A DNA stretch of 48,043 bases from Methanolinea sp. (GTDB lineage Archaea; Halobacteriota; Methanomicrobia; Methanomicrobiales; Methanospirillaceae): assembly GCA_018263335.1 (NCBI GenBank), contig JADFCY010000014.1, forward strand, positions 1 to 48,043. Direction: 5' to 3'. This document shows, one piece after another, positions 8,424 to 22,527 of the stretch (position 1 is its first letter; every line of letters begins with the position of its first letter). The position numbers were made by a program, and so were the translations under genes. The notes below the pieces were generated by a model. That model was not told the DNA's origin. It searched no databases and saw only the letters and a program-made list of their open reading frames with translations.

Positions 8424-8915
8424 ATGCAGTGCGAATTGTGCGGAGGGAAGATTGTCGGCCCTTCAAAGACCGTCCGGGTGGAGGGAGCCGAGCTCGTGGT
8501 CTGCGCCAATTGCGCCCGGTACGGGACCGAGGTGCAGATGACTGCAAAGGCACAGCCGCGTGCCGGGACTGGCCCCCGCGCAGGGAGATCGGTCCCCGTC
8601 AGGCGCTCGAGGGACGTTTTTGACCTGATCGAGGGCGAAATTGTTGAAGATTACGGTGAACGCATCCGCGCTGCCCGGATGGAGAAGGGCCTCTCGCAGA
8701 AGGATCTTGCGATGCAGCTCAAGGAGAAGGAGCTGCTGATCAAGAAGATCGAGAAGGGAGACCTGATCCCCGAGGACGAGGTGCGGAGGAAACTTGAGAA
8801 GGCGCTTGGCATCAGGCTGATCGACTCTCCTGCAGATGATGAGGGGAAGCGTGGCGGAGGGACGGTTGTCCCGACCCTCGGGGACGTGATCTCGATCAAG
8901 AAGGTCCATAAATGA
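8424..8915 (+). CDS. Multiprotein bridging factor 1 homologue (zinc ribbon-HTH)
   Basis: Protein of 163 aa from ATG 8424. The N-terminal zinc ribbon has C-x2-C (MQCELCGGK) and C-x2-C (VVCANCARYG). After a basic linker comes a Cro-type HTH (YGERIRAARMEKGLSQKDLAMQLKEKELLIKKIEKGDL), as in archaeal MBF1. Archaeal MBF1 has been linked to ribosomes and translation rather than classic TBP bridging. An in-frame ATG at 8397 is rejected because it precedes the RNA start predicted from the TATA box at 8382-8390. A hairpin just after the stop precedes the aromatic-operon promoter. Confidence 0.93.
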   Translation: MQCELCGGKIVGPSKTVRVEGAELVVCANCARYGTEVQMTAKAQPRAGTGPRAGRSVPVRRSRDVFDLIEGEIVEDYGERIRAARMEKGLSQKDLAMQLKEKELLIKKIEKGDLIPEDEVRRKLEKALGIRLIDSPADDEGKRGGGTVVPTLGDVISIKKVHK

Positions 8916-8940
8916 GAGAAAGGTCCACGGGCCATCTCAT
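8912..8940 (+). terminator. Hairpin after the MBF1 stop codon
   Basis: ATGAGA (8912-8917) pairs with TCTCAT (8935-8940), with GGTCC/GGGCC pairing inside. It is followed by a T-run (8944-8947) that is also part of the next TATA box. A plausible terminator separating MBF1 from the aromatic operon. Confidence 0.45.
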
Positions 8941-8943
8941 CAC

Positions 8944-8952
8944 TTTTATATA
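8944..8952 (+). promoter_or_regulatory. TATA box of the aromatic amino acid operon
   Basis: TTTTATATA, the best TATA element between MBF1 and the first operon gene. It predicts an RNA start at about 8973-8975 and so a leader of about 215 bases, far longer than the near-leaderless transcripts elsewhere in the window. Confidence 0.65.
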
Positions 8953-8977
8953 CTTGGTCGTTCCATTCTGATCTTCA

Positions 8978-9025
8978 ATGCAAGGTGAGTGTTTTTTCGC
9001 CGGTGAGTGTTTTTATCTCGCTTAG
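8978..9025 (+). CDS. Possible leaderless upstream peptide ([15 protein letters not shown])
   Basis: The only ATG near the predicted RNA start (3-6 bases downstream) opens a 15-codon ORF ending in TAG. The peptide contains FF and FY within a repeated G-E-C-F-F/Y unit, encoded by the direct repeat GGTGAGTGTTTTT (8984-8996 and 9002-9014). It overlaps the longer aromatic leader ORF in another frame. It could be translated leaderlessly, or be a chance product of the T-runs. Kept as a candidate because it sits first on the transcript of an aromatic amino acid operon. Confidence 0.35.
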   Translation: MQGECFFAGECFYLA

Positions 9026-9137
9026 CCTGGCGCCTGCACCGTGCATCAACGAACCTGTCCTTCTGAACCATAAGCCAGTAGCTGCGGCACTTTCCCGCTA
9101 TCACCGCTATTTTGGTTATTTCTGGTATTTTTACTGA
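8985..9137 (+). CDS. Candidate aromatic leader peptide of the operon, ending [12 protein letters not shown]
   Basis: A 50-codon ORF from GTG 8985 (alternative GTG 9003) to TGA 9135-9137. Its last twelve codons (9099-9134) read TAT CAC CGC TAT TTT GGT, then TAT TTC TGG TAT TTT TAC: five Tyr, three Phe and one Trp. The stop is followed after one base by a hairpin over the SD of the first enzyme gene. Position, aromatic run and hairpin match a ribosome-sensing leader peptide. Weak points: the start is GTG with no clear SD and the tract is T-rich, which favours Phe and Tyr codons by chance. No database support was possible. Confidence 0.6.
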
Positions 9138-9138
9138 A

Positions 9139-9184
9139 ACTCCATCGGCCATTTCTCATACAAATGCGCTGGATGGATGGGAGT
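9139..9184 (+). promoter_or_regulatory. Hairpin predicted to bury the SD of the first aromatic gene
   Basis: ACTCCATC (9139-9146) pairs with GATGGGAGT (9176-9184, one bulged G), and inside it CATTT pairs with AAATG around a short loop. The 3' arm contains the GGGAG Shine-Dalgarno (9179-9183) of the gene starting at 9190. The 5' arm starts one base after the aromatic leader ORF stop, so a ribosome held on the last leader codons would cover it and leave the SD free. Confidence 0.5.
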
Positions 9185-9189
9185 GTTAC

Positions 9190-9990
9190 ATGAGAGGAAA
9201 AGAAATTCGCCTGGAACGCATCATGGACCGGAATACCGGCAAGACGATCATTGTCCCGATGGACCACGGGGTGAGCAACGGCCCTATCGAGGGCCTCATA
9301 GACCTGGGGAGAGCAGTCGACCTCGTGGCGACAGGGGGTGCCAACGCCGTCCTCGGACACGTCGGCCTGTCCCTGTACGGCCACCGGAAGAGCGGGAGGG
9401 ATGTGGGGCTGATCCTCCATCTCTCGGCAAGCACCTCGATCGGGCCTGACCCGAACGAGAAGGTACTGGTGAACTCGGTGACAAGCGCCCTGAAGATGGG
9501 GGCCGACGCCGTCTCTATCCACGTAAACATCGGGGCCGACTCTGAAGCGCGGATGCTCTCTGACCTCGGGCGGGTGGCAATCGACTGCATGGAGTGGGGG
9601 ATGCCGCTCCTCGCGATGATGTACCCGAGGGGAAGGAAGATCAAGGACGAGCACCAGGTCGAGCACGTCTGCCTTGCCGCAAGAGTGGCAGCGGAGCTTG
9701 GGGCTGACCTCGTCAAGACGGTCTATACCGGTGACCCTGACAGTTTCCGCCTGGTGACAAGGGGATGCCCTGTCCCGGTGGTGGTGGCAGGAGGCTCTAA
9801 AACAAGCGACCTTGCCACCCTGGAGTTAATTGAGGGGGCGATGGAAGGGGGTGCCGCCGGGATCTCAATCGGGCGGAACGCCTTCCAGCACCCTGCACCG
9901 GACCGCTTTGTCAGGGCCGCGGCAGAGATCGTCCACCGGGGGTGCTCGGCGGAAGAAGCACTGGAGATTGTGAAGGAGAAGAGAAGATGA
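9190..9990 (+). CDS. 2-amino-3,7-dideoxy-D-threo-hept-6-ulosonate synthase (ADH synthase)
   Basis: Protein of 266 aa from ATG 9190, with GGGAG seven bases upstream. It is a class I aldolase of the archaeal AroA'/MJ0400 family, which condenses 6-deoxy-5-ketofructose 1-phosphate with aspartate semialdehyde in the DAHP-independent route to 3-dehydroquinate. The [18 protein letters not shown] block is very like MJ0400. Catalytic Asp/His (MDHG), Tyr (MMYPRG) and Schiff-base Lys (LVKTVYTGD) are present, as is the phosphate-binding GRNAFQH. First enzyme gene of the operon; ATGA overlap with the next. An upstream in-frame extension was rejected because it lacks family residues. Confidence 0.92.
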
Positions 9991-10772
9991 TTGGAAAAGA
10001 GATTCGTATCGAGAGGATCATGGACCGGAACACTGGACGGGCCGTGATCGTTCCCATGGACCATGGGTTCACGCTGGGACAGATTGAAGGGCTGCTGGAC
10101 ATGACCACGACAATCTCGGAGGTGAGTGAGGGCGGAGCAAACGCGATCGTCCTGCACAAGGGGATCGTCAAACGCGGGCACCGGAGAAGGGGAAGAGACA
10201 TCGGGCTGATTGTCCATCTCTCGGGGAGCACATCCCTCAACCCAGACCCGAACGACAAGGTGCTGGTCTGCACCGTAGAGGAGGCGGTGGCGCTCGGCGC
10301 AGACGCGGTCTCCATCCATATAAACCTCGGGGCCCCGAACGAGTCGAAAATGCTTGAGTCCGCGGGGAAGGTGGTAAAGGACTGCAACCGCTGGGGGATC
10401 CCTCTCCTTGTCATGATCTACCCGAGAGGCAAGGGTATCGATCCCACCTCGCCTGCAACGGTGGGGCACTGCGTAAGGGTCGCCGAGGAACTTGGCGCCG
10501 ACCTCATAAAGACCAATTACACGGGTGACCCGGTCTCTTTTGGCAAGATCGTCACCTCGTGCTCAGTCCCGGTCTTCATTGCCGGGGGAGAGAAGGCAGG
10601 GGACCTCGAGACGCTCCAGATCATACGCGACTCCGTGAAGGCGGGGGGGGCGGGGGTCTGTGTAGGCCGGAACGCCTTCCAGAGGGAGAACACACGGGCA
10701 TTCGTCAAGGCCCTCTGCCGCGTCGTGCACGAGGAGGCAGACCCGGAGCAGGCGCTCAGGGAGGCGGGATGA
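9987..10772 (+). CDS. Second ADH synthase/fructose-bisphosphate aldolase family enzyme
   Basis: Protein of 261 aa, clearly paralogous to the preceding gene (shared GKEIR[10 protein letters not shown], MGADAVSIH-type, YPRG and TGDP blocks). Schiff-base Lys (LIKTNYTGD), Tyr (MIYPRG) and Asp/His ([12 protein letters not shown]) are kept. In Methanocaldococcus the two relatives MJ1585 and MJ0400 make and then use DKFP, so this copy may supply the substrate of its neighbour, or be a second ADH synthase. The VSNGP block is replaced by FTLGQ, which argues for a distinct role. ATGA overlaps on both sides imply translational coupling. Confidence 0.85.
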
Positions 10773-11755
10773 AGGAGTTCTGGGTTGACGCCCGGTCTTG
10801 GAAGAAGGAAGTGGTGACCGCCGCCCTTGAGAGTGGAGCAGATACCATCGTCGCTGACGAGAGCGGCAAGGTGAAGGCGCTCGGGAGGGTCCGTGTCGTG
10901 GCTCCTGACGGGGACCTCGCGATCGGCAGGGACGTCTGGGAGGTGAAGATTGCCGGCAAGGAGAGCGAGGAGAAGGCGGCCACCCTTGCAAGGAACGGGT
11001 ACGTCATCGTCAGTGCAGAGGACTGGACGGTGATCCCCCTCGAGAACCTCGTGGCCCAGTCAGACCGTATCATCGCACTGGTACATGATGCAGGGGAAGC
11101 AGAACTGGCGCTCCAGGTGCTTGAGCGTGGGGTCGCAGGAATCCTGCTCCTGACGGGAGACCCGAAGGTGGTGAAGGAGACGGGATCATTGATACACCGC
11201 GGCAATGAACGGTGTGCCATGGTACCATTCATGGTCACCGCGATCCGCCCGGTGGGGATGGGGGACCGGGTCTGCGTCGATACCTGCTCGATGCTGAGAG
11301 AAGGGGAGGGGATGCTCGTCGGCAATACCTCTTCGGCTTTCCTGCTCGTCCACGCAGAAACGCTGGAGAACCCATACGTGGCCCCGAGGCCGTTCCGGGT
11401 CAATGCAGGGGCAGTACATGCCTACATCCTCTCATCCGGAGGAAAGACAGCCTACCTCTCGGACCTTGCTGCAGGAGACCGCGTGCTGGTGGTGGGGGCC
11501 GATGGCAGTACAAGGGAGGTGACAGTCGGGAGGGTGAAGATCGAGCAGAGGCCGCTCCTTCTCGTCGAGGCCGAGGCAGAGGGGAGAACCTACAGCCTTG
11601 TCCTGCAGAATGCCGAGACGATCCGCCTGGTGGGAGATGACGGGAGTGCCCGTTCAGTCGTCGATATCTCTCCGGGAGACAGGGTGATGGGCTGCCTCAA
11701 GGAGGCCGGCCGCCACTTCGGGATGGCGGTCAGGGAGAAGATCCTGGAGAAGTGA
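10769..11755 (+). CDS. aroB': 3-dehydroquinate synthase II (archaeal AroB')
   Basis: Protein of 328 aa beginning [20 protein letters not shown], a typical opening of the archaeal DHQ synthase family (DUF98/COG1465). It carries out NAD-dependent oxidative deamination and cyclisation of ADH to 3-dehydroquinate. Conserved blocks include GDRVCVDTCSMLREGEGMLVGNTSSAFLLVHAE and PRPFRVNAGAVHAYILSSGGKTAYLSDLAAGD. Unrelated to bacterial AroB. It starts with an ATGA overlap after the second aldolase. Confidence 0.94.
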   Translation: MKEFWVDARSWKKEVVTAALESGADTIVADESGKVKALGRVRVVAPDGDLAIGRDVWEVKIAGKESEEKAATLARNGYVIVSAEDWTVIPLENLVAQSDRIIALVHDAGEAELALQVLERGVAGILLLTGDPKVVKETGSLIHRGNERCAMVPFMVTAIRPVGMGDRVCVDTCSMLREGEGMLVGNTSSAFLLVHAETLENPYVAPRPFRVNAGAVHAYILSSGGKTAYLSDLAAGDRVLVVGADGSTREVTVGRVKIEQRPLLLVEAEAEGRTYSLVLQNAETIRLVGDDGSARSVVDISPGDRVMGCLKEAGRHFGMAVREKILEK

Positions 11756-12586
11756 TTGCAGGTGAAGATCGGGATCATCGGCGGAACCGGCAGGATGGGT
11801 ACGTTCTTCCGGGAGGTATTCGAGAGGGCGGGGTGGGAGGTGCAGGTTGCAGGGAGGAGCACTCCGCAGAGTCCCGCGGACGTCGCAGGGGCCTGCGATG
11901 TCGTCATGGTATCGGTGCCGATCAGGGAGACGGCCGGTGTGATACGCTCGGTTGCACCGCTCCTCTCGGAGGACCAGGTATTCTGCGATCTCACCTCGCT
12001 GAAGACCGGGCCGGTGGAGGCGATGCTCGCATCCCGGGCCCAGGTGGTGGGTCTTCACCCGATGTTTGGGCCCACCGTAAGTAGCCTGTCGGGCCAGACC
12101 ATCATCGCGACCCCTGCGCGCTGCACCCAGGAGACCCTCGATCTCCTCCTGTCGGTCTTTTGGTCCCAGGGGGCCAGGGTGACCCTCTCCACTCCTGAGG
12201 AGCATGACCGGATCATGGCCGTCGTGCAGGGGCTGACCCACTTCGTCACTCTCGGCGTGGCGGAGACGATGCGGAGGGTGGGAGTCAAGCCGGAAGACAC
12301 CCTGGCATTCATGAGCCCGGTCTACCAGATGGAGATGAGTCTCGTGGGAAGGCTCCTCTCCCAGGATGCCCGCCTCTATGCCGATATACTCGGGCAGAAC
12401 CCCCACGTGATACCTGTCATCGAGGCATGCGAGGGCACATTCTCTTCCCTTCGGGAGATCATTGGGACCGGGGACACCGACGCCTTTGAAGAGGTGTTCA
12501 GGAAGAATGCGCAGCACTTCGGGGCGTACTGCCAGAAGGCAGCCCAGGAGTCTGACCTGCTGATCGCGTCCATGGTGAGGCAATGA
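11756..12586 (+). CDS. tyrA: Prephenate dehydrogenase
   Basis: About 276 aa. The Rossmann motif is at the very start (KIGIIGGTGRMGTFF), followed by GLHPMFGPTVSSLSGQTII, the TyrA region with the catalytic His (LHPMFGP). The C-terminal helices contain TLAFMSPVYQMEMSLVGRLLSQD and a long helical end. It converts prephenate to 4-hydroxyphenylpyruvate with NAD(P). The start is TTG 11756, directly after the previous stop and five bases after GGAGA; GTG 11762 is the alternative. No chorismate mutase domain is fused, so that activity must be elsewhere. ATGA overlap with pheA. Confidence 0.9.
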   Translation: MQVKIGIIGGTGRMGTFFREVFERAGWEVQVAGRSTPQSPADVAGACDVVMVSVPIRETAGVIRSVAPLLSEDQVFCDLTSLKTGPVEAMLASRAQVVGLHPMFGPTVSSLSGQTIIATPARCTQETLDLLLSVFWSQGARVTLSTPEEHDRIMAVVQGLTHFVTLGVAETMRRVGVKPEDTLAFMSPVYQMEMSLVGRLLSQDARLYADILGQNPHVIPVIEACEGTFSSLREIIGTGDTDAFEEVFRKNAQHFGAYCQKAAQESDLLIASMVRQ

Positions 12587-13380
12587 AGGTATTTGTACTC
12601 GGACCGGAGGGCACGTTCAGCCACGAACTTGGTTGGCGCGTATTTGGAGACCGGGTCACCCTCGTCTCTACCATCCGGCGCATCTTCGAGGCTGTGGAGA
12701 AGGGGGAGGGAACAGGACTCGTCCCCTTGGAGAACAGCGAGGCCGGGGGCGTCGGGCCATCACTGGACGGGCTGCTCCAGCACCATGTCTGGATCACGGG
12801 AGAACTGTACATGCCCATCCACCACTACCTCGTCTCCCCTGGGCCGCTCGAAGAGGCGGAGGTGCTCTACGTCCATCCCCAGACCCACGAGCAGTGCAGC
12901 GAGGTGGTGGACGCCCTCGAGATACCTGTCGTGCATACCCCGAGCAATGCCCAGAGCGCGATGGAGATGCGGCGGTCGGGGAAGAGTGCGGCCATCGTGT
13001 CACTGATGACCGCCCGCCTCTACGACCTCCCAATCCGGCGCGAACGTGTGGAGAACAACCAGAGGAACATCACCCGGTTCGTGACCATCTCTTCGGCGAG
13101 GTATCCTGGGCCTGATGCCGCGAAGGGGAGCATCATCATTGATCCAAGGGAGGACCGTGCGGGGCTCCTCCACGACATCCTCGGGATCTTCTCCCGTCAC
13201 GGCATCAACCTCACCAGGATCGAGTCACGCCCATCCAAGCGTGGCATGGGGAGTTACGTCTTCTTTCTCGATTTCGTGTACAACGGAAATTCAGAAGAGG
13301 CAGTCAGTGAACTCAAAGGGATGACGGCAGTCAAGGATCTTGGGAGGTATCCCACGCTGGAGGTCCCTGAATGGAAGTAA
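12583..13380 (+). CDS. pheA: Prephenate dehydratase with ACT domain
   Basis: Protein of 265 aa. The PDT domain (MKVFVLGPEGTFSHELG; LVPLENSEAGGV; ENNQRNITRFVTI) includes the conserved T-R-F catalytic motif. The ACT regulatory domain at residues about 185-260 has RAGLLHDILGIFSRHGINL followed by TRIESRPSKRG, the ESRP motif that binds phenylalanine. It makes phenylpyruvate from prephenate. The ACT domain predicts allosteric inhibition by Phe on top of any control in the leader. Starts with an ATGA overlap and overlaps aroA by 10 bases. Confidence 0.94.
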   Translation: MKVFVLGPEGTFSHELGWRVFGDRVTLVSTIRRIFEAVEKGEGTGLVPLENSEAGGVGPSLDGLLQHHVWITGELYMPIHHYLVSPGPLEEAEVLYVHPQTHEQCSEVVDALEIPVVHTPSNAQSAMEMRRSGKSAAIVSLMTARLYDLPIRRERVENNQRNITRFVTISSARYPGPDAAKGSIIIDPREDRAGLLHDILGIFSRHGINLTRIESRPSKRGMGSYVFFLDFVYNGNSEEAVSELKGMTAVKDLGRYPTLEVPEWK

Positions 13381-14639
13381 CGCTTCGAAAAGCAGGAGAT
13401 GTTTACCTCAACTTCCAGGCGCCACCTTCAAAGAGTTACACTCACAGGGCGCTGATAGCCGCCTCCCTTGCCCTGGGCGACTCGATCATCACAAATCCGC
13501 TGGAGGCAGAGGATATTGCGGCCACAAGAGCAGCCCTCGTGGGAATGGGTGTGCAGATCATGGAAGGGGACCGCTGTTCCCGGGTCAGGGGCACGGGCGG
13601 AACGCTCTCCTGTGCTCCCGGGCTTGTTATGGACATGCAGAACTCCGGGACGAGCATGCGGCTGCTCACTTCAGTCGCGCTCCTTTGTAAAAGCCCTGTA
13701 GTCCTCACGGGCTCCCCTCGCATGAAGGAGCGCCCGCTTGGCCCCCTTGCGGACGCACTCACCGCCCTTGGCGGGAGGATCGAGTTCATGGAGAAGGCGG
13801 GATTTCCGCCGGTGAAGGTCTCGGGGAGGCTCACCGGTGGGCGGGCGCGGGTGGATGCAGGTATGAGCAGCCAGTTCGTCTCCTCGATCCTGATGGCGGC
13901 GCCATATGCCCACCGGGACGTGATCCTGGACCTCGATCCAGGGGTTGCATCCCCCTCTTACCTGGACGTCACACTCTCGGTGATGGAGGCCTTCGGTGCG
14001 ACGGTTGAAAGAGAGGGATACCGGCGTTTCCAGGTAGCAGCCGGGATACCGTACCGGGCAAGAACGTACGAGATCGAGGGGGATTACTCGTCTGCATCGT
14101 ACTTCTTTGCACTCGCAGCGCTCTGCGGCGGCCGGGTCCGTGTCGGAAACCTGAACCCGACTTCCTGCCAGGGAGACAGGCGGTTCCTGGCCGCACTCGA
14201 GTCGATGGGGTGCAGGGTGAGCACCCCTGGAGATTCGGTCGAGGTCTCCTGCGACGGATATCTGGATGGGATCGAGATCGATATGTCCTCGTCTCCTGAT
14301 ACGGTTCAGACACTCTGCATGGTCGCTGCGAAGGCCCGGAGCCCGACAAGGATCTCCGGGATCGCCCACCTGAAGTGGAAGGAGAGCGACCGCCTGGAGT
14401 CCACCACGAGGCTCCTTCGAAGCCTTGGGGGAGATGTGACAGTAGAGGGGGACGCACTCATCATAAGACCTGCACCGTTGCACGGGGGAAGGATAGACCC
14501 TGGCGATGACCACCGGACCGCGATGAGTTTCACGGTCCTTGGGCTTTCGATGGGAAACGTAAAGATAACCCAGGCGGAATGTGTCAGTAAATCCTTCCCG
14601 GGTTTCTGGGAGCAGCTTGCAGGGCAGGGACTGGTATGA
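13371..14639 (+). CDS. aroA: 3-phosphoshikimate 1-carboxyvinyltransferase (EPSP synthase)
   Basis: Protein of 422 aa. It transfers enolpyruvate from PEP to shikimate 3-phosphate. Visible signatures: PPSKSYTHRALIAASLALG (substrate Lys/Ser), NSGTSMRLLTSVALL, GSPRMKERPLGPLADAL, SSQFVSSILMAAPYA, HLKWKESDRL and DDHRTAMSF near the C-terminus. Length and all motifs are normal. The start ATG 13371 lies within the end of pheA, and the stop overlaps the start of the kinase-dehydrogenase fusion. Confidence 0.95.
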   Translation: MEVTLRKAGDVYLNFQAPPSKSYTHRALIAASLALGDSIITNPLEAEDIAATRAALVGMGVQIMEGDRCSRVRGTGGTLSCAPGLVMDMQNSGTSMRLLTSVALLCKSPVVLTGSPRMKERPLGPLADALTALGGRIEFMEKAGFPPVKVSGRLTGGRARVDAGMSSQFVSSILMAAPYAHRDVILDLDPGVASPSYLDVTLSVMEAFGATVEREGYRRFQVAAGIPYRARTYEIEGDYSSASYFFALAALCGGRVRVGNLNPTSCQGDRRFLAALESMGCRVSTPGDSVEVSCDGYLDGIEIDMSSSPDTVQTLCMVAAKARSPTRISGIAHLKWKESDRLESTTRLLRSLGGDVTVEGDALIIRPAPLHGGRIDPGDDHRTAMSFTVLGLSMGNVKITQAECVSKSFPGFWEQLAGQGLV

Positions 14640-22176: not shown

Positions 22177-22527
22177 GGAGTGGGAGGAGTAAGCCCCCTT
22201 CTGTTCGGTGCGGCATTCAGCTATGCGCCATACCCGGGCAGGCACTGAGCAGCCTTCATGCCCTGTTCTGGCTTGCACCCGCAGGGATTCACCGTTTCAT
22301 CGATTCCTGCCCTTATGCATCAACGAGACATACGCGCACTCGAAGAGGCGCGACGCATCGCCCCTCTGGGGGCTCGATCGCATCATCGCTGGGGGCAGGC
22401 CGTGTCGTTTCTGTGCCATTGCCATGACTCTCGCCACCCGTACTTGCATACGGCTGCGCGCTCAGCAGGTGGGGGGACTTTCCTCAGCAGCATCATGTGC
22501 CACCGTCGGCCGCACTCTCCCTCTCCC
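22177..22527 (-). ncRNA. rnpB: RNase P RNA, archaeal type A-like
   Basis: Read on the minus strand the region has the universal RNase P core: CR-I GAGGAAAGTCC at 22485-22475, and CR-V ACAGAA-GGGG-GCTTA at 22204-22190. P1 pairs the 5' GGAGAGGGAG (22526-22517) with the 3' CTCCTCCCACTCC, with one mismatch. A GGGTGCAAGCCAGAACAGGG segment lies in the specificity part. The RNA is the catalytic subunit that removes tRNA 5' leaders. The ends given are those of P1, about 351 bases. It lies between the HTH-CBS gene (downstream, same strand) and the divergent AMMECR1 gene. Confidence 0.93.

Follow-up and report, generated by a model that had tools for sequence, protein, structure and literature searches.

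In bacteria, attenuation at pheL, trpL and ilvBNC relies on a short leader with many codons for the end product of the operon and on an RNA structure downstream of it, and the sensing of amino acids by a leader-translating ribosome is a bacterial mechanism. A Shine-Dalgarno (SD)-like element with a 3-nt spacer is part of the RF2 frameshift signal. Passages of a 2016 review (PMC5009743) describe the RF2 +1 shift as occurring at CUU_U, with UUU_U used in a minority of species, and state that a slow-to-decode A-site codon matters more in +1 than in -1 shifting. The same passages present the ermC leader as a case of translational attenuation with telithromycin-induced frameshifting, call frameshifting in pheL incidental and note that one archaeal virus probably uses a +1 shift (PMC5009743). 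They also hold that frameshifting at hungry codons could yield starvation-specific products, adding that 'no examples are known' (PMC5009743). For Archaea, the only programmed frameshift counted in the relevant passages of a further paper is the -1 shift in fucA1 of Saccharolobus solfataricus (PMC8211752). In the open-access full-text literature, we found no archaeal leader-peptide attenuator.

Here we analyzed a stretch of 48,043 nucleotides, in the following called the window, which forms one contig from an archaeon of the Methanomicrobiales (labelled G000). The operon downstream of the predicted leader is, as judged by the protein profiles its genes match, an operon for aromatic biosynthesis (Phe/Tyr), while an aMBF1-type regulator gene and a proteasome-activating nucleotidase gene lie upstream of the leader on the other strand (features in Table 1). 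Among the matches listed, the ADTH synthase of the window is 98% identical to that of Methanoregulaceae archaeon PtaB.Bin056 and matches the Euryarchaeota MAG L139 at 100%, with Methanolinea records also near. The sole Rfam match in the window is an archaeal RNase P RNA (RF00373, 206 bits) at 22178-22525 on the - strand; no riboswitch or leader family was found at gathering score.

Table 1. Features of the leader, the hairpin region and the operon, in window coordinates.
Feature	Position	Strand	Remarks
TATA box TTTATATA	8945-8952	+	Centre 29 nt upstream of leader ATG
Frame A	8978-9025	+	Near-leaderless ATG, 15-residue reading, stop TAG 9023-9025
GGTGAG, SD-like hexamer	8984-8989	+	3 nt upstream of shift site 1
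Frame B leader	8985-9137	+	Rival start GTG 8985, stop TGA 9135-9137
Putative +1 shift site 1	8993-8998	+	TTT_T, next codon Phe TTC
Second GGTGAG, SD-like	9002-9007	+	3 nt upstream of site 2; weaker in some genomes
Putative +1 shift site 2	9011-9016	+	TTT_T, next codon Tyr TAT
Aromatic run	9099-9134	+	Leader's last 12 codons, 9/12 Phe/Tyr/Trp
Hairpin, register of the initial annotation	9139-9184	+	Covers SD; near-equal energy here, not conserved in sisters
Hairpin, genus-conserved register	9141-9177	+	3' arm ends 1 nt before SD
Shine-Dalgarno GGGAG of ADTH synthase	9179-9183	+	
ADTH synthase (2-amino-3,7-dideoxy-D-threo-hept-6-ulosonate synthase)	9190-9990	+	Operon's first gene; TIGR01949, 340.8 bits, cut-off 299.45
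Rest of operon after first ADTH synthase	9987-14639	+	
Second ADTH synthase	9987-10772	+	Profile match
3-dehydroquinate synthase II	10769-11755	+	Profile match
Prephenate dehydrogenase (tyrA)	11756-12586	+	Best hit below curated equivalog cut-off
Prephenate dehydratase (pheA)	12583-13380	+	Best hit below curated equivalog cut-off
aroA (EPSP synthase)	13371-14639	+	Profile match

The locus was compared across 149 Methanomicrobiales genomes (61 + 88), the order being the only one that a class-level search yielded; genera are labelled g1, g2 and so on, with g1 denoting the window's genus. Some matched genomes were left out of the 149 (G066, G087, G110, G114, G130, G131, G146, G153, G161 and G166), G129 was entered as a miss, as it represents the second paralog's locus, and the upstream region of G028 is broken off by a contig end. 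As leader, we took the open reading frame (ORF) ending at most 140 nt from the start codon whose last 14 codons held the most aromatic residues. The ORF picker's minimum of 20 codons introduces a slight bias to open frames; no selection was made for a +1 frame relative to the ATG. At least six Phe, Tyr or Trp residues occurred in the leader's last 14 codons in 110 of the 149 genomes, against 1.6 expected from dinucleotide shuffles. This bias is specific to one frame, since across 115 unique runs 766 of 1,380 codons (56%) are aromatic in frame, versus 157 (11%) and 275 (20%) in the other two frames. Similarly, the middle segment, which separates site 2 from the run (n = 116 unique), is open in frame B in 116/116 cases, in frame A in none and in the +2 frame in 13. 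Leader stops lie 112 to 277 nt from the ATG, at 31 distinct distances that are all 1 mod 3, which shows frame-dependent filtering of many indels. The locus therefore combines a short upstream ORF enriched in codons for the end product with a reading-frame constraint on that ORF, both of which characterize leader-peptide attenuators. Single positions within the run are loose, as 75 of 90 substitutions are non-synonymous and 18 of the 30 changes hitting an aromatic codon exit the aromatic class (staying 0.40, 0.20 expected).

These comparisons show that the Methanomicrobiales as an order have kept a leader gene rich in aromatic codons. Isolates carry it as well, with a readable dual-frame layout in Methanoculleus sediminis and M. 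chikugoensis and a one-frame form in Methanospirillum stamsii. Among the misses, f2 g25 and f6 g29 have a leader placed further upstream, and in these lineages (G047, G061, G091, G106) a CTGCACC...GGTGCAG hairpin with T-runs follows the stop, at a long distance from the start codon, and the switch may act on transcription in this lineage. The leader is seemingly absent in G013, G029 and G056, which have short palindromes near the start in its place. These palindromes are related to GTGCTACTATGTCACATACTAACAC, and many of 40 loci from other families of the phylum (L316-L355) show a GTGCTACTATGTCACATACTAACAC-like palindrome near the ADTH synthase promoter and no leader. None of these 40 loci has an aromatic leader: 39 reach at most 5/14 aromatic residues, and L337 has 6/14, located 187 nt upstream. 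Within the loci inspected for other amino acids, no enriched leader was seen at hisG (16 of 30 loci, one unreadable) or ilvB (14 of 27 loci). At trpE, 20 of 26 loci (G000:C11 L244 included) share a conserved GGTGATGCC(G/A)(C/G)TGGA(C/A)TGG, a mini ORF reading MP[VL][DE]W..., with one Trp codon, that overlaps or just precedes trpE near TGTACA-like boxes and is followed in much of the window's genus by a GCCGCC/GGCGGC inverted repeat. This mini ORF may be a second, Trp-specific leader.

The initial annotation of the window missed the dual-frame make-up of the leader's 5' end, which holds two overlapping frames. A 5' motif, ATG NNN GGT GRR TGY YTT TTY ... YTT TAY followed by a stop, is carried by 117 genomes, that is, the 149 without the 32 lacking it; as these genomes are related, their counts do not represent independent events. 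Some lineages carry an 18-nt insertion inside the motif. The frame A layout is the same in 117/117 motif genomes, and the aromatic frame is +1 relative to the ATG in every one of them and never the ATG frame itself. An upstream TATA-like octamer (at least 6/8) is present in all 117, centred 26-30 nt upstream of the ATG in 113 of them, and an SD-like sequence precedes the leader ATG in 4/117 only. Judging by the TATA box, transcription probably begins at the leader ATG or a few bases upstream of it. Of 61 genomes, 44 contain a single copy of the cassette, each time at the leader locus, with a count of 0 for the reversed control.

Both putative shift sites read YTT_T in 117/117 genomes, and the next codon is invariably TTY at site 1 and TAY at site 2. 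Each thus provides, in all 117, the CUU_U/UUU_U-type sequence at fixed phase to the start that marks RF2-type shifting, with the frame A stop following site 2 within five codons in 112/117. The hexamer at site 1 is GGTGRR in 99 of the 117, CGTGAG in 9, CATGAG in 8 and GGTAAA in 1, and it overlaps the rival GTG start. A search for the 16S 3'-end (anti-SD) pattern gave no match in this assembly; GGTGA is called SD-like by its putative pairing with the general anti-SD sequence. The unit GGTGAG-TGT-TTT-T occurs twice in 8984-9016, more than one would usually see in a simple start region, and G095 and G179 contain three units of this type, the first with a broken shift site. Cassette-less lineages were inspected in 26 of the 32 genomes, 19 of which have a single frame from the ATG to the aromatic stop. 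In G053, G058 and G067, which show this one-frame form, alignment by eye places a 1-nt loss inside a shift site. G047 and G100 have no clear TATA box before the ATG.

Turning to the hairpin, the initial annotation had placed it one base after the leader stop, and the sequence bears this out: TGA 9135-9137 is followed by one base (9138), ACTCCATC at 9139-9146, GATGGGAGT at 9176-9184 and the ATG of the gene at 9190. The two arms can indeed pair, forming 8 pairs with one bulged G. The accompanying claim that the hairpin covers the SD fared less well. Coverage is possible in this register (-13.0 kcal/mol), but a rival register, pairing UCCAUC 9141-9146 with GAUGGA 9172-9177, leaves the SD free at -13.3 kcal/mol and is the one conserved in the genus. 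In the ensemble, the two outer stems reach about 12% and 17%, and the SD bases are 40-56% unpaired. Thermodynamic folding, proposed earlier as a check, gave values no better than dinucleotide shuffles (z +0.32 for 8976-9215, -0.11 for 9135-9200). With z near 0, the window sequence alone does not establish the hairpin by energy, and single-sequence folding was rejected as evidence for it. Instead, the predicted hairpin is established by comparison between genomes.

Across the order, the first paired base lies a median of 1 nt past the leader stop, and at most 8 nt past it in 110 of the 118 unique sequences used for hairpin position; the stem has a median of 13 pairs. Fold z averages -1.55 over 111 unique sequences with at least five aromatic residues, a gap of at most 90 and the required SD call. 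In the window's genus, 13 unique sequences keep the SD-free register, with 15 pairs, three of them showing two-sided changes, and 17 of 195 cells broken or gapped. The close sister G004 reads GATAGGA at the window's GATGGGA, hence the exact register initially proposed is not conserved. Covariation in the arms, the other suggested check, was observed as two-sided changes in several clades (g1, g20, g5+g11, g12, g30 and g27), although not for that exact register, and arm sequences differ between clades. No pair with a two-sided change was found in g21, the best sampled genus, nor did the g16 alignment contain one, and in g8, g13, g14, g17, g32, g33 and g35 the hairpin was no better than shuffles. 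A conserved RNA structure after the leader stop, the further hallmark of an attenuator, is therefore present in the order, with some genera negative.

Comparison with shuffled spacers confined the role of SD burial to part of the order. The 3' end of the hairpin overlaps the SD in 85 of the 111 sequences having an SD call, yet burial in 29 genera (n = 111 unique sequences) was 3.56 kcal/mol versus 3.48 for shuffles, with 13/29 genera above shuffles; placement at the SD is thus general, whereas burial is not. The window's genus has an SD less buried than shuffles (0.9 versus 2.9 kcal/mol). General SD burial, unsupported across genera, was dropped and the claim narrowed accordingly. The related idea that a ribosome masking the 5' arm would open a buried SD holds clearly in g27, g11 and g20, where the SD is strongly bound and is freed in the model by masking the first 15 nt (relief of 7.9 versus 1.3, 6.1 versus 1.0 and 5.7 versus 1.6 kcal/mol for shuffles, respectively), and appears as a trend in g21, g30 and g12. 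Overall, genus means do not differ from shuffles, with relief above shuffles in 16/29 genera only, and the idea does not hold in the window's genus, where masking lowers SD accessibility in the model (relief -2.5 versus 0.5 kcal/mol). Likewise, a fold with a single-stranded SD, named at the outset as an argument against the switch, is what the conserved register of the window's genus shows, while the SD is paired in other clades. Even where the stem only touches the SD, it may get in the way of the small subunit; alternatively, it may serve re-initiation by holding the leader stop near the SD.

The leader, its frame and aromatic bias, the two sites and the position and conservation of the hairpin are observations made here. 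Building on them, we consider it quite probable that the locus is a ribosome-sensed leader-peptide switch for aromatic synthesis in Methanomicrobiales, with frameshift entry in most lineages; translation of the leader, the frameshift, the direction of the response and the action of the hairpin are what we infer. A ribosome on the leader would read the dense run of Phe/Tyr/Trp codons just before the leader stop, and the hairpin between this stop and the ribosome site of the ADTH synthase would hamper initiation; in some genera it would pair with the SD, in others it would lie directly against it. If charged aromatic tRNAs were scarce, the ribosome would linger on the run and cover the 5' arm of the hairpin, so that the operon would be translated; if they were plentiful, the ribosome would depart and the hairpin would form. 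The gene set and the bacterial precedent suggest that the switch would be on in aromatic starvation. In most lineages, the ATG frame would act as a decoy, ending about 15 codons in, and a +1 shift, most likely at YUU_U before Phe (site 1) or Tyr (site 2), would be needed to reach the run. Hungry ribosomes would thereby enter the aromatic frame, and well-fed ribosomes would run into the early stop. Whether such a starvation-gated, RF2-like shift at the two YUU_U sites leads from the decoy into the aromatic frame that controls the ribosome site is, in our estimate, evenly balanced.

A frameshift would be dispensable if frame B started at the internal GTG 8985 (ATG in some relatives), with the ATG frame serving as a ribosome-competing decoy and the aromatic switch unchanged, a scenario we regard as possible but unlikely. 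Most genomes do have a GTG at the start position of frame B, but it would lie 7 nt into an mRNA that is nearly leaderless, 113/117 genomes lack an SD in front of it, and in G150 this first GTG is lost (GTA) with the leader still open. CATGAG replaces CGTGAG in a start-codon-like exchange (8 versus 9 genomes, mainly in g5/g11, about half there), a pattern that suits an internal start codon better than it suits an SD-like element. Changes between the two sites also fit an internal start, with 9/15 single-step changes synonymous in frame B (0.29 expected) against 3/15 in frame A (0.24 expected), a comparison of weak power given its 15 changes; such constraint in frame B is compatible with a frameshift as well as with an internal start. 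The conserved layout is harder to reconcile with an internal start, as ATG and site 1 have the same relative phase in 117/117 genomes, including lineages with the 18-nt insertion, the GTGA-spacer-YTT_T unit is duplicated where a single start needs one copy, and many lineages go from the ATG straight into the aromatic frame. We therefore hold it fairly likely, from the arrangement of the motif, that frame B is entered by an RF2-like +1 frameshift in most lineages.

Other readings concern what happens downstream. Rather than a lock, the hairpin could be a bridge that sets the leader stop beside the SD, such that finishing ribosomes re-initiate on the ADTH synthase and, with the gate, only starved ones arrive. 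The stem of the window's genus, reaching from just past the stop to about 1-2 nt before a free SD, would suit such a bridge, and termination-reinitiation coupling is reported in archaea in passages of PMC6728339; nevertheless, we judge it improbable, since the SD itself is paired in g11, g20, g21 and g27, starved ribosomes would be slow to finish the aromatic run and the response would have the wrong sign in lineages that lack the gate. Still less credence is due to an action on transcription, in which the position of the ribosome decides termination. No terminator-like site (hairpin plus U-tract) was found in the window at 8900-9300, and the hairpin sits at the SD in most genera, so that the translational, not terminator-based, mode proposed initially is the better guess; the mode may differ in f2 g25 and f6 g29, whose distant hairpin and T-runs would fit termination. 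Finally, the leader peptide or the 5' repeat could have another role, either as a small protein or as a regulator's target in the DNA, with an incidental hairpin. The strong conservation of the repeat at the base level would agree with this, but the aromatic content runs up to the stop ahead of an aromatic operon, the ATG-to-stop distance is variable and the cassette is unique in each genome, making this a very remote alternative to the ribosome-sensed leader-peptide switch.

If true, the switch would be the first archaeal leader-peptide attenuator found in the open-access literature, and its shift the first programmed +1 frameshift found there for an archaeal cellular gene, as well as a natural use of hungry-codon frameshifting. 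Most members of an order of methanogens would then rely on the switch. The layout makes both archaeal leader sensing and hungry-codon frameshifting testable with simple reporters, and lineages that seemingly have a one-base deletion in place of the shift offer natural controls. With pheL, trpL and ilvBNC, the locus has in common a short leader rich in product codons and a subsequent RNA structure; it differs in being an archaeal leader without a terminator in the window, with the structure at the ribosome site, a near-leaderless start and two overlapping frames. A further likeness to RF2 may be the putative SD-like element with its 3-nt spacer, although at site 1 the same bases include the rival GTG start. 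The early end of a short zero frame, the +1 frame beyond and the site of the CUU_U or UUU_U type are RF2-like, as described in passages of PMC5009743. In contrast to RF2, the archaeal A-site codons are Phe/Tyr codons and not a stop, the output is a leader and not a protein, and there are two tandem sites. The ermC leader, as portrayed in the same passages, is similar in that leader translation opens a downstream ribosome site and a leader frameshift can be the trigger, whereas it senses an antibiotic and belongs to a bacterial gene, unlike the conserved putative shift sites before Phe/Tyr codons and the biosynthetic gene seen here (PMC5009743). The fucA1 gene is comparable as a case of archaeal recoding but, according to the passages concerning it, involves a -1 shift with an enzyme as product and no leader role (PMC8211752). 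Together, the parts of the proposed switch are of known kinds, while their combination and the domain of life in which they occur appear new to us.
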